The notes under the pieces: model-generated
What the model was told of the DNA's origin: nothing
The model's database searches: none
What the model saw: only the letters and a program-made list of their open reading frames with translations
Made by a program: the position numbers and the translations under genes
Shown here: positions 16,143 to 54,476 of the stretch, piece after piece
Layout of the letters: each line of letters starts with the position of its first letter
How positions within the stretch are numbered: position 1 is the stretch's first letter
NCBI RefSeq assembly: GCF_000219725.1
Contig: NC_015732.1
Span: forward strand, 558,001-622,000
DNA from: Gracilinema caldarium DSM 7334
Lineage (GTDB): Bacteria; Spirochaetota; Spirochaetia; Treponematales; Breznakiellaceae
Direction of reading: 5' to 3'
DNA length: 64,000 nt

Positions 16143-17014
16143 TTTGGATTGTTGGAAACAAGGGGATGCTCGGTACCGAGCTTACCCAGTATTTACAGAA
16201 CCAGGGCCTCCCAGTCCTTGGCACGGACCGGGAAGTCAGTTTTCTGGATCCCGATGCCCTTTCAGCCTTTGCCCAGGACAAACCCATATTCTGGATCATC
16301 AATTGTGCCGCCTACACCGCCGTGGATAAGGCCGAAGACGAAGAAGACCTTGCCCTGCGCTTGAATGCCGAAGGCCCCGAAAATCTAGCTCGCCTTGCAC
16401 AAAACATCGGAGCCCGGCTCCTCCACATTTCTACCGACTATGTCTTTTCAGGCACTCCCCAACTCCAGTTTGATGCACCCAGGCCCTACCGTGAGGATGA
16501 CCCCACAGGCCCTACCGGTGCCTATGGCCGTACCAAGGAAGCCGGGGAGCGCCGTGTCCTTGCTGTTGCGCCTTCCTCCCTTATTGTCCGCACCGCCTGG
16601 CTTTACGGAGCGCATGGTCCCAACTTTGTCTTTACCATGCTCCGCCTCATGAAAGAGAGGGACCGCATCGGCGTCGTCGCAGACCAGCGGGGAACACCCA
16701 CCTGGGCCCGGGACCTCGCCGCCGCCATTCACGGGCTTATAACAAAACCAGAGGTGCCCGCCGGTATCTACCATTTTACCAACGACGGCGAATGCACCTG
16801 GTACGATTTTGCCCTGGCCATCCGCGACGAAGCCCGCACCCTCGGCCTCTTAGACAAAGACTGCACCGTAAACCCCCTCACCACTGACCAATACCCCACC
16901 AAAGCCCGCCGCCCCGCCTATTCCGTCCTCTCAAAAGACAAAATAAAAGCCCTCGGCATCCCCGTCCCCGGCTGGCGGGAAAGCCTCGTGGAGTTTTTAA
17001 AAACACAATTGTAA
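16139..17014 (+). CDS. rfbD: dTDP-4-dehydrorhamnose reductase
   Basis: This is a 291-residue RmlD SDR with N-terminal GNKGMLGTEL, NCAAYTAVDKAEDEE (~60), HISTDYVFSG (~101) and the YGRTKEAGE catalytic Tyr-Lys region (~127). It reduces the 4-keto intermediate to dTDP-L-rhamnose. ATG overlaps the rfbC stop. Bases 16919-16967, within its C-terminal coding part, recur at 17511-17559 after a truncated toxin module, so this gene end has been partly duplicated. The gene itself appears intact. Confidence 0.97.
   Translation: MIWIVGNKGMLGTELTQYLQNQGLPVLGTDREVSFLDPDALSAFAQDKPIFWIINCAAYTAVDKAEDEEDLALRLNAEGPENLARLAQNIGARLLHISTDYVFSGTPQLQFDAPRPYREDDPTGPTGAYGRTKEAGERRVLAVAPSSLIVRTAWLYGAHGPNFVFTMLRLMKERDRIGVVADQRGTPTWARDLAAAIHGLITKPEVPAGIYHFTNDGECTWYDFALAIRDEARTLGLLDKDCTVNPLTTDQYPTKARRPAYSVLSKDKIKALGIPVPGWRESLVEFLKTQL
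16919..16967 (+). repeat. direct repeat copy A (inside rfbD 3' end)
   Basis: These 49 bases in the last part of rfbD are repeated at 17511-17559 with three mismatches. Copy A is coding; copy B is not. The two copies border the antitoxin and truncated-PIN module at 17064-17506 (with part of the rfbD tail). Confidence 0.9.
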
Positions 17015-17027
17015 AATGCATGACAAC

Positions 17028-17057
17028 TTGATAACTAAAAAATGTTTATAGTATTTT
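17028..17057 (+). promoter_or_regulatory. candidate sigma70 promoter, leaderless geometry
   Basis: TTGATA (17028-17033), an 18-base spacer and TATTTT (17052-17057) precede the antitoxin ATG at 17064. The -10 box ends 7 nt before the start codon and no Shine-Dalgarno is visible, so the transcript may begin at or next to the ATG. Confidence 0.5.
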
Positions 17058-17063
17058 ATACAT

Positions 17064-17291
17064 ATGAAAACGCTACCAGTTGGAAAACTTAAAGCTCAGT
17101 TCTCAGAAGTTTTAGAATTAGTAAAGCATGGGGAATCTTTCGGGATTATATATGGCAAAAAGAAAAAGCCAATTGCCATGATTATTCCATACGTTGATAA
17201 GGAAGAAATAAAAGAAAGAAAAATTGGTATTTTAGATGAAAAATATAAACTGAAGATTGATGAAAATTTTAAATTTGTGGATTGCCGATAA
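17064..17291 (+). CDS. Phd/YefM-family antitoxin
   Basis: This is a 75-residue protein with the short Phd/YefM fold signature: KTLPVGKLKAQFSEVLELVKHGESFGIIYGKKKKPIAMIIP, in which an early helix is followed by a strand-turn-strand and a C-terminal tail (RKIGILDEKYKLKIDENF) that would wrap around a PIN toxin. The family binds DNA as dimers and neutralises a co-encoded toxin. Its partner at 17282-17506 lacks its N-terminal half, so the antitoxin may be an orphan. AT-rich compared with rfbD and rfbB. Confidence 0.75.
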   Translation: MKTLPVGKLKAQFSEVLELVKHGESFGIIYGKKKKPIAMIIPYVDKEEIKERKIGILDEKYKLKIDENFKFVDCR

Positions 17292-17506
17292 AAGATTTAT
17301 TGAAGTTTGGTATATATTTGGATTACTGTTTTTTAGATTTATTGCCGGAAGATTCTCTGTATTATTTAGAATTAAAAGAAGAAACACATAGGGATCCATT
17401 TGATCGAATGTTAATAGCTCAATGTATAAAAAATAAATTAATAATGATAAGCAAAGATCGTGAATTTGAAAAATTTAAAAGCGAAGGTTTAAAAGTCATT
17501 TGGTAA
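17282..17506 (+). pseudogene. VapC-like PIN toxin, N-terminal half missing
   Basis: The 74-residue frame matches only the second half of a ~125-residue PIN toxin: ...LLPEDSLYYLELKEETHRDPFDRMLIAQCIKNKLIMISKDREFEKF, with the conserved DPFDRMLIAQ and the final catalytic Asp region. The first half, with the invariant N-terminal DTH/DTN aspartate, is absent, and the frame begins about where the antitoxin ends. A deletion of ~50-60 codons best explains this. It should be inactive as a nuclease. Confidence 0.75.
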
Positions 17507-17510
17507 ACAA

Positions 17511-17559
17511 TATTCAGTCCTCTCCAAAGACAAAATAAAAACCCTCGGCATCCCCGTCC
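17511..17559 (+). repeat. direct repeat copy B (non-coding fragment of rfbD end)
   Basis: This 49-base stretch matches 16919-16967 of rfbD with three mismatches. It has no coding role here. It lies between the truncated PIN gene and the promoter of the next TA module, as a scar of duplication or insertion. Confidence 0.9.
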
Positions 17560-17582
17560 TCATCCTTTTGTCCTGTCGAACC

Positions 17583-17618
17583 TTGAAAGTGTATCAATAT
17601 AATGATATAATATTGATA
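17583..17618 (+). promoter_or_regulatory. TA promoter with palindromic operator
   Basis: TTGAAA (17583-17588), a 17-base spacer and a perfect TATAAT (17606-17611) form a strong promoter. A 9-base inverted repeat, TATCAATAT (17592-17600) and ATATTGATA (17610-17618), spans the -10 box. This is the expected position for an autoregulatory antitoxin operator. AGGAGG (17621-17626) follows as ribosome site for the ATG at 17633. Confidence 0.8.
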
Positions 17619-17632
17619 TAAGGAGGTCCTGT

Positions 17633-17896
17633 ATGCCTACAATACGACCCAGTGCCGATTTACGCAATAACTACAATGAAATATCAGAATTCTGTCATAC
17701 ATACGCTGAACCTGTTTTTATTACCAAAAACGGACAGGGCGATTTAGCGGTAATGAGCATCGAAACCTATGAATTATTGGCAGGGAAATTGGAGCTTTAT
17801 AGATTACTTGATGAAGGTTTACATGCCCATGAAAACGGAAATGTGAAACCAAGTGAAGCCGTTTTTTCTCAAATCCATAAAAAAATGAAGTGGTAA
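17633..17896 (+). CDS. Phd/YefM-type antitoxin
   Basis: This is an 87-residue protein beginning PTIRPSADLRNNYNEISEFCHTYAEPVFITKNGQGDLAVMSIETYE, the classic prevent-host-death/YefM pattern (RPSADLRNNY helix, then FITKNGQGDLAVM strands). The C-terminal ~35 residues would contact the toxin. A consensus AGGAGG lies 6 nt upstream. Its TAA stop shares one base with the toxin ATG (TAATG at 17894-17898), so the two are translationally coupled. Expression is probably autorepressed through the palindrome at 17592-17618. Confidence 0.9.
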   Translation: MPTIRPSADLRNNYNEISEFCHTYAEPVFITKNGQGDLAVMSIETYELLAGKLELYRLLDEGLHAHENGNVKPSEAVFSQIHKKMKW

Positions 17897-18231
17897 TGTA
17901 TACCCTGCAGTTTACTGAGCCAGCTGAGCATGATTTACTCTCTATACTCACATATATTACAGAAGTATTAAAAGCCCCTGATTCTGCAAAACAACTAGTA
18001 GCTGATTTCGAAAAGCAAACGGAACTATTAAAAACCGCACCCCTATGTTGTGCCCTAGTTTCTGATGATTATTTGCGGTCTAAAGGTATTCGTGCTCTTT
18101 TAGTTAAAAAGTATTATCTCTTTTATGTGGTTAATGAAGAAGAAAGCCTTGTTTCTGTAATTAGAATTCTCTATTCTCGAAGAGATTGGTCAAACATCCT
18201 ACGAAATGACAACACATACATAAAGGACTAA
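17896..18231 (+). CDS. RelE/ParE-family toxin
   Basis: This is a 111-residue protein. ATG at 17896 overlaps the antitoxin stop; a longer reading from GTG 17890 is less likely. It shows RelE/ParE features: YTLQFTEPAEHDLLSILTYI at the start, a central helix, and the C-terminal core IRALLVKKYYLFYVV ... VIRILYSRRDW, in which the terminal Arg-rich strand matches ParE/RelE toxins. It may act on ribosome-bound mRNA or on gyrase; the family does not settle which. rfbB starts 3 nt after its stop, so rfbB may be partly read from the TA promoter. Confidence 0.88.
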   Translation: MYTLQFTEPAEHDLLSILTYITEVLKAPDSAKQLVADFEKQTELLKTAPLCCALVSDDYLRSKGIRALLVKKYYLFYVVNEEESLVSVIRILYSRRDWSNILRNDNTYIKD

Positions 18232-53572: not shown

Positions 53573-53671
53573 GGGGTGTTTCTTCCTTTTCGCAGCATAT
53601 TAGAAAATCGCCGCTTGTATGTAAAGGGCCCCTTTATTTGCAGCGGCAGGCCCCCCCAGAAGCGGTATCAA

Positions 53672-53700
53672 AACCAGCCCAGGCTCCGGACGCCCCTTTC
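53672..53700 (+). repeat. 29-bp direct repeat, copy A (before the vapBC-like module)
   Basis: These 29 bases recur at 54418-54446 with a single mismatch. They flank the TA module inserted between birA and smc. Confidence 0.92.
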
Positions 53701-53701
53701 A

Positions 53702-53730
53702 TTGGCAAAAACTAAGAAATGCACTATATT
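53702..53730 (+). promoter_or_regulatory. promoter of the vapBC-like module
   Basis: TTGGCA (53702-53707), a 17-base spacer and TATATT (53725-53730). AGGAGG (53751-53756) then lies 6 nt before ATG 53763. Confidence 0.7.
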
Positions 53731-53762
53731 TTGAAGAGAACTGGTTCAGAAGGAGGCTTATC

Positions 53763-54011
53763 ATGAAATCAATTACCATTCATGGAATCGATGCTGATTT
53801 AGATAAGAAAATCACTCAAAAAGCCTCAGAAATCGGGTTAAGCCAAAATCAAACAGTCAAATTACTTTTACAAAGTACGCTTAATTCAGATAAAAAAGCC
53901 TTAAAAAAGGAATCTTTTTCAGAATTATTCGGTAAATGGACCCCCGAAGAAAAAGAAGAGTTTGAAAAAAATATTAGTGATCTTGAAACAATTAACCAAA
54001 CAGACTGGTAA
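53763..54011 (+). CDS. ribbon-helix-helix-like antitoxin
   Basis: This is an 82-residue protein. The start KSITIHGIDADLDKKITQKASEIGLSQNQTVKLLL fits a beta strand followed by two helices, as in ribbon-helix-helix DNA-binding antitoxins. The acidic C-terminal end (WTPEEKEEFEKNISDLE) would contact the toxin. It has a perfect AGGAGG ribosome site and is 2 nt before a PIN-domain toxin gene. The promoter at 53702-53730 is probably autorepressed, though no clear palindrome is seen. Confidence 0.85.
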   Translation: MKSITIHGIDADLDKKITQKASEIGLSQNQTVKLLLQSTLNSDKKALKKESFSELFGKWTPEEKEEFEKNISDLETINQTDW

Positions 54012-54013
54012 AA

Positions 54014-54415
54014 ATGACAAAAATACTTCTTGATACAAACGCCTATAGCGAGTTTATGTCCGGAAATGCTCTTGTTTTTGATTATATCGTTGAAGCGGAA
54101 GAGATATTTTTATCAACCGTTATGATAGGTGAGCTATTTGCTGGATTTAAAGGTGGTAAAAAATACACACAAAACATAGCATATTTGAAATCCTTTATAA
54201 ATAAAGATGGTGTAAAGATTATAAATGTTACTTTCGAAACCGCAGAAATATTTGGAGAAATCAAATCGGACCTCACTAAAAAAGGTAAAATGATTCCATT
54301 AAATGATATCTGGATTGCTGCCCATACTATAGAAACAGGGGCAAAATTAATAACCTTTGATGCCCATTTTAAACATATTAATGGTTTGCGAATTTGGGAT
54401 GAACTAACAGGGTAG
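54014..54415 (+). CDS. VapC-like PIN-domain toxin ribonuclease
   Basis: This is a 133-residue full PIN domain. It has the first catalytic Asp in ILLDTNAYSEFMSG (~4-17), the conserved Glu in STVMIGELFAGF (~35-46), the third acid in PLNDIWIAAHTIE (~95-107) and the fourth in ITFDAHFKHI (~114-123). All four acidic positions are present, so it should be an active RNase when free of its antitoxin. AT-rich compared with birA and smc, and bordered by a direct repeat, which suggests acquisition. Confidence 0.92.
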   Translation: MTKILLDTNAYSEFMSGNALVFDYIVEAEEIFLSTVMIGELFAGFKGGKKYTQNIAYLKSFINKDGVKIINVTFETAEIFGEIKSDLTKKGKMIPLNDIWIAAHTIETGAKLITFDAHFKHINGLRIWDELTG

Positions 54416-54417
54416 AC

Positions 54418-54446
54418 AACCAGCCCAGGCTCCGGACGCACCTTTC
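54418..54446 (+). repeat. 29-bp direct repeat, copy B (before smc promoter)
   Basis: This stretch equals 53672-53700 except for one base. It continues straight into the smc promoter, so copy B is likely the original chromosomal position and copy A the duplicated one, or the reverse. Confidence 0.92.
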
Positions 54447-54476
54447 TTGACCCCTCCCGCCCTGGAATGGTACAGT
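54447..54476 (+). promoter_or_regulatory. candidate smc promoter
   Basis: TTGACC (54447-54452), an 18-base spacer and TACAGT (54471-54476). CTGGAG (54483-54488) is the likely ribosome site for the TTG start at 54496. Confidence 0.65.

Follow-up and report, generated by a model that had tools for sequence, protein, structure and literature searches.

A VapBC-type toxin-antitoxin unit between birA and smc, probably inserted at the foot of a dispersed palindrome with duplication of its target

How very small toxin-antitoxin modules that lack a recombinase gain entry to chromosomes is, to our knowledge, not settled, and the spacer between the housekeeping genes birA and smc raises this question in compact form. 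The window, by which we mean the whole 64-kb stretch of DNA analysed, corresponds to bases 558001-622000 of the closed 3,239,340-base genome of a hot-spring spirochaete, and the features of the locus described below all lie on its + strand. The initial annotation had proposed that 29-base direct repeats with one mismatch bracket a cassette between the two genes, which the coordinates, identity and chance estimates bear out. The left copy occupies 53672-53700 and the right copy 54418-54446, with 28 of 29 bases identical at a spacing of 746, and the 3.24-Mb genome has no third copy even when up to 3 mismatches are allowed (0 in the backwards control as well). If bases are assumed independent, approximately 3e-8 pairs of this quality are expected by chance in 64 kb at spacings of 300-1600, and none of 200 shuffled flank pairs attained the score of the repeat. 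When the whole window was scanned without bias for 29-mers at a spacing of 300-1600 with at most 3 mismatches, only two pairs emerged, namely this one and another at 16919/17511, both of which frame toxin-antitoxin units.

The bracketed unit (53701-54417, 717 bases) contains a promoter, an antitoxin-like gene and a PIN-domain (VapC) toxin, and is minimal in that it begins 1 base ahead of its own -35 and stops 2 bases past the vapC stop. As also claimed beforehand, it is AT-rich against GC-rich neighbours (32.2% GC versus 56.7% in birA and 52.8% in smc), although AT-richness by itself is not rare since 50 of 1266 window tiles are equally AT-rich. The further claims that a promoter follows each repeat copy, and that the smc promoter was left complete while the cassette received its own, likewise held: TTGGCA-17-TATATT (53702-53730) starts 1 base after the left repeat, whereas the right repeat ends at the -35 of TTGACC-18-TACAGT (54447-54476), the smc promoter, which is intact after the insertion and whose TTGACC...TACAGT stretch also occurs in three other genomes of the same genus (G001, G002 and G003). 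Promoter-like sites numbered 4 against a mean of 2.8 in shuffles, and the cassette promoter is backed by conservation in four relatives; when their vapBC upstream regions were aligned with that of the window (five in all), its -35 TTG and -10 region were conserved, and conservation started at the -35 TTG. Around the -10 lies a putative operator, an inverted repeat TG(A/C)AC ... TGGTTCA (53720-53748), of which TGGTTCA is invariant in the five regions and is probably an operator half.

The pair had been described as vapBC-like, and for the toxin (54014-54415, 133 aa) the family evidence is direct: its PIN domain matches PF01850 at E 9.5e-15 (55.7 bits versus a gathering cut-off of 23.6), it has acidic residues in LLDTN, GELFAG, NDIWIA and TFDAHF that we take to be catalytic, and its solved relatives include 3zvk and tRNA(fMet)-specific VapC chains. 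The 82-aa product of the upstream gene (53763-54011), named vapB by position, is antitoxin-like and conserved beside VapC, being 61-65% identical to the product of the gene preceding VapC in three relatives; its NCBIfam VapB match is weak and under cut-off (E 0.0088), and neither Pfam (at E 0.1) nor, with a 4-sequence profile, the PDB gives a match. By analogy with the family, VapC would cleave RNA, and VapB would restrain VapC and repress the operon. The ORFs of the unit encode no transposase or recombinase, no inverted pair of at least 14 bases was reported with both arms in or at the unit ends, and models of defence systems matched none of five proteins, two of these from the window.

We searched 39 genomes, including that of the window (G000), of which 35 matched a 2.7-kb query, mostly via smc. 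The empty site comes from one draft genome, G002, where one contig spans birA, the spacer and smc and has the repeat only once, without the cassette. This copy is diverged, aligning with small gaps to both window copies; its left context fits that of the left copy and its right context that of the right copy. Such a spacer, in which the repeat is present once and the cassette absent, points to insertion with duplication of the target. In G003 the birA-smc spacer (L027, C28) holds a phosphatase-like gene in place of the cassette, and in G001 the contig ends near smc. Thus, the single copy that had been predicted for the spacers of close relatives was found in G002, albeit diverged, and conservation of the cassette and both repeats in all relatives, which would have made them ancestral, was not, as neither G002 nor G003 has the cassette here. 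Homologous VapBC genes do occur in G001 and G003 between mannosidase-like and rlmE-like genes (these, like the phosphatase, named by eye), with VapC 73% identical between the window and G001, and with the toxin frame broken in G003. Their presence at a different locus indicates that the unit is mobile over evolutionary time.

Two things are absent from the initial annotation: other toxin-antitoxin units of this genome are framed by repeats as well, as set out further below, and the repeat, judged from the sequence, overlaps in part with one arm of a resident palindrome that probably belongs to a dispersed family. Positions 53622-53690 hold the right half (inner hairpin and 3' outer arm) of an imperfect palindrome of ~125 nt, the 5' outer arm of which is missing. 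This half was found by blastn against the palindromes at genome positions 2685861 and 2072169 (79%, E 4.5e-8) and is not reached by the full-length covariance model. The G002 spacer carries a complete imperfect palindrome of ~120 nt (106 bits, this element being part of the model's training set) whose 3' arm forms the left portion of the 29-base repeat; 18 bases of the repeat are therefore palindrome 3' foot, and the remaining 11 are flank that runs up to the smc -35. The arm 13-mer GCCCAGGCTCCGG has 12 exact copies in the genome, all of them confined to four places (308 kb, this window, 2070-2073 kb and 2685-2688 kb), and 39 matches at up to 1 mismatch versus 1 in the backwards control. The covariance model (R1), built from six elements (five from this genome and one from G002), finds 19 distinct genome places at E <=1, training elements included, some with other arms; six of the 19 belong to the array at 1.198-1.220 Mb described below. 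Across the six training elements both sides are changed in 11 of 45 pairs of a structure derived from these same elements, a figure that 0 of 500 shuffles reach; the palindrome looks maintained, and repair between the arms could also cause this pattern.

Other members of the family were seen further afield. At genome 1197951-1220190 (L076, L077) six family palindromes with other arms occur one per repeat of a large-ORF array, with a smaller ORF after most of them. In G002 (L101 3828-3943) and G003 (L111 1692-1810) palindromes lie between what seem to be the same two genes, their arms differing (13-14 of 25 bases identical per arm) yet self-complementary. When ten loci, the majority containing palindromes, were searched against Rfam, a tRNA was the sole hit above a gathering score.

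Taken together, we consider it likely that a VapBC-type unit (53701-54417) inserted once between birA and smc, at the palindrome's 3' foot, duplicating 29 target bases, because of the repeats themselves, the empty site in G002, the continuity of each flank with G002, the foreign composition of the unit and the homologues at another locus. The unit's boundaries coincide with the start of the conserved promoter and the vapC stop, and since the duplicated piece ends at the smc -35 and the cassette brings its own -35, both smc and the toxin-antitoxin pair keep a promoter. As to how this came about, we tentatively propose that a break with 29-base staggered ends may have been filled in with a fragment joined between them, so creating the duplication. 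The break would plausibly fall where the palindrome extrudes or stalls replication, and selection would then retain a piece only if it brought in a complete, addictive toxin-antitoxin operon. Such selection would explain the minimal ends under any of the mechanisms discussed here, and the 11 locus-specific bases of the repeat fit a staggered break at the palindrome foot, with fill-in on either side of a captured fragment.

A counterpoint to break and fill-in is provided by the other palindrome loci. All four places that hold the 13-mer carry toxin-antitoxin genes: in addition to the VapBC of this window (framing repeat 29 bp, 97%), these are a VapBC at 309 kb (406 bp, 84%), a Phd-type antitoxin whose partner has no family match at 2072.5 kb (112 bp, 79%) and a HicA toxin at 2687.5 kb whose small partner has a weak family match (157 bp, 98%), with rpn genes at 2071 kb (143 bp, 69%) and 2686 kb (73 bp, 86%) framed as well. 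In the thrS-purL spacer (genes named by eye) this genome has the HicA unit, G002 has palindromes and an rpn gene (on two contigs ending in palindrome), and G001 has other sequence with no match to the palindrome model. The framing repeats at the three other loci (73-406 bp) are largely palindrome DNA, so exchange between elements could be their source; homologous exchange explains them equally well, and as an account of those loci it fits better. Applied to birA-smc, the unit would have travelled beside a palindrome copy, carried by a circle or by a fragment of donor DNA, and one crossover at the resident palindrome would have left it between two direct copies, a scheme with which the shared orientation of type-A elements within a locus, and one element that looks chimeric, also agree. 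Here, however, 11 of the 29 duplicated bases are not palindrome but locus flank up to the smc -35, the flank seen in G002 continues unbroken from the right copy, and 29 bp is short for homologous recombination, and we regard homologous integration as somewhat unlikely. The rpn genes were considered as transposases of the palindromes and rejected: of five in the genome, two lie between 13-mer-type palindromes and one in the 1.2-Mb array, and the two at 2443793 and 2449165 have neither a palindrome match nor a framing repeat.

A transposase supplied in trans, from an element of the IS1549/IS1634 type that makes long target duplications of variable length, seems very unlikely to us. These elements are reported to leave direct repeats of 8 to 514 bp (PMC2266710, in the excerpt available), and the duplications here are also long and variable, but no inverted pair (minimum length 14) lies at the unit ends and no transposase is encoded. 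Slightly less probable again is an ancestral cassette lost in G002 through recombination between the repeats: excision of this kind would leave an identical single copy, but G003 also lacks the cassette and has a different gene in the spacer, the homologues in G001 and G003 are elsewhere, and the composition is foreign. Finally, we considered that the resident integron integrase had put an integron cassette at a non-attC site, given that the genome has such an integrase above the family cut-off (374.9 versus 265 bits) together with an array with attC sites, that the palindromes look attC-like, and that a 73% identical VapC lies between two attC sites in L138, and rejected this as extremely improbable, since the resident attC sites are of another type and unlike the palindromes by eye, a pattern built on them has no match on the + strand of the window, model R1 finds no palindrome in the integron array, and integrase chemistry would not be expected to yield a 29-base duplication.

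Framing repeats are not confined to palindromes. Significant ones were found at 4 of the 18 PIN genes of the genome, birA-smc included, each reached by 0 of 300 shuffles; two of these loci are at palindromes, one is at 3162750 (40 bp) and one is at rmlD (49 bp, 92%). In the rmlD case, again on the + strand, copy 1 of the 49-base direct repeat (16919-16967) lies inside the rmlD 3' end, and copy 2 (17511-17559) begins 4 bases past the stop of the toxin in the unit between them (17064-17506), which consists of a Phd/YefM-like antitoxin (17064-17291; PF02604 at E 2.2e-4, under cut-off) and a truncated PIN toxin (17282-17506; PF01850 at E 3.8e-6, profile positions 70-117 only). Its anatomy is similar to that of the birA-smc unit without the palindrome, copy 2 falling just after the toxin stop in both. 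On the other hand, the 47 bases of the gene that follow copy 1 have no counterpart behind copy 2, contrary to what a simple target duplication would give, and this counts against it. The stretch 16919-18231, between rmlD and rmlB (named by eye), continues after the framed unit with a Phd/YefM-ParE pair.

The same scan was run over 743,000 other bases, which do not overlap the palindrome loci at 308, 2070 or 2685 kb; the 1.198-1.220 Mb array was left out too. It gave three pairs. Two of them, a tRNA pair and a paralogue-like coding pair (both named by eye), are trivial, which leaves one comparable case in 743 kb: a polysaccharide deacetylase gene at genome 1096028-1097060 (L210), framed by a direct repeat of ~80 bp. 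The signature is therefore not limited to toxin-antitoxin genes, and we rejected the idea that it is exclusive to them. Framing repeats were also rejected as a rule for PIN units, as 14 of 18 have none at the sensitivity used, and as a rule for the VapC family, in which 28 relatives were found, 25 entered (L162-L164 left out) and 23 testable, with repeats at shuffle p <=0.015 in 4 of the 23, one being an attC pair and one looking like a terminator. Related VapBC pairs in other organisms were seen framed by a 17-bp exact direct repeat (L146, 2629-2645 and 3420-3436) and by a 216-bp near-identical one (L153, 2367-2582 and 3503-3718).

We take the VapBC-type unit to be a genuine acquisition and an ordinary cargo; what is unusual is the repeated insertion signature. 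That this spirochaete lineage possesses an undescribed capture process, in which compact toxin-antitoxin units are placed beside or between large imperfect palindromes that serve as the insertion site, with a direct duplication each time and an integron-like accumulation without attC, strikes us as distinctly unlikely. The birA-smc footprint is a clean one: the unit is minimal and its ends are exact, a sister species shows the empty site, and these 64 kb contain a second example. Should the palindromes be entry points, this lineage would offer a testable case of structure-directed gene capture; if they are not, excision and loss can still be measured directly by way of the repeats.

In our limited search of open papers, neither these palindromes nor this insertion turned up, although parts of the picture are known. 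With the type II VapBC family the unit shares a PIN toxin with four acidic positions, a small upstream partner in operon order and its own promoter; it differs in that the antitoxin lacks a Pfam family (E 0.1) or solved structure and VapC falls under the NCBIfam equivalog cut-offs. VapBC is a common cargo, and in Sulfolobus vapBC loci are flanked by degenerate IS copies (PMC3718332, in the part available). With IS1549/IS1634, for which the available excerpt of PMC2266710 proposes no mechanism, the similarity lies in long, variable direct repeats at insertion, and the difference in the lack of a transposase or defined ends here. Integron toxin-antitoxin cassettes are likewise compact, and a close homologue of the birA-smc VapBC is one, lying between two attC-type sites in a Treponema MAG (L138, 2477-3511); by comparison, no attC was found for the birA-smc unit, its repeats are of another type and its spacer does not adjoin an integrase. 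The integron of this genome (1926802-1942000; L165, L166) comprises the integrase and a cassette array with toxin-antitoxin-like pairs, in which one 935-bp stretch occurs twice at 99.8% identity. The rpn genes have been described as toxin-antitoxin genes within genes, with neither flanking inverted repeats nor target duplications reported in the portion of PMC10327210 available, whereas here two of five lie between the same palindromes as the toxin-antitoxin units, flanked by direct repeats of 73 and 143 bp. A further precedent is a ParDE-like pair of Microcystis aeruginosa PCC 7806, described as fenced by direct repeats containing inverted repeats (two of 152 bp, each with a 16-bp inverted repeat; PMC7935541, in the excerpt available, which reports no empty site or dispersed palindrome family). 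Its repeats are identical and stand off from the genes by 147 bp on the upstream and 120 bp on the downstream side, whereas those between birA and smc are 29 bp long, fit tightly to the ends of the unit and are accompanied by an empty site.
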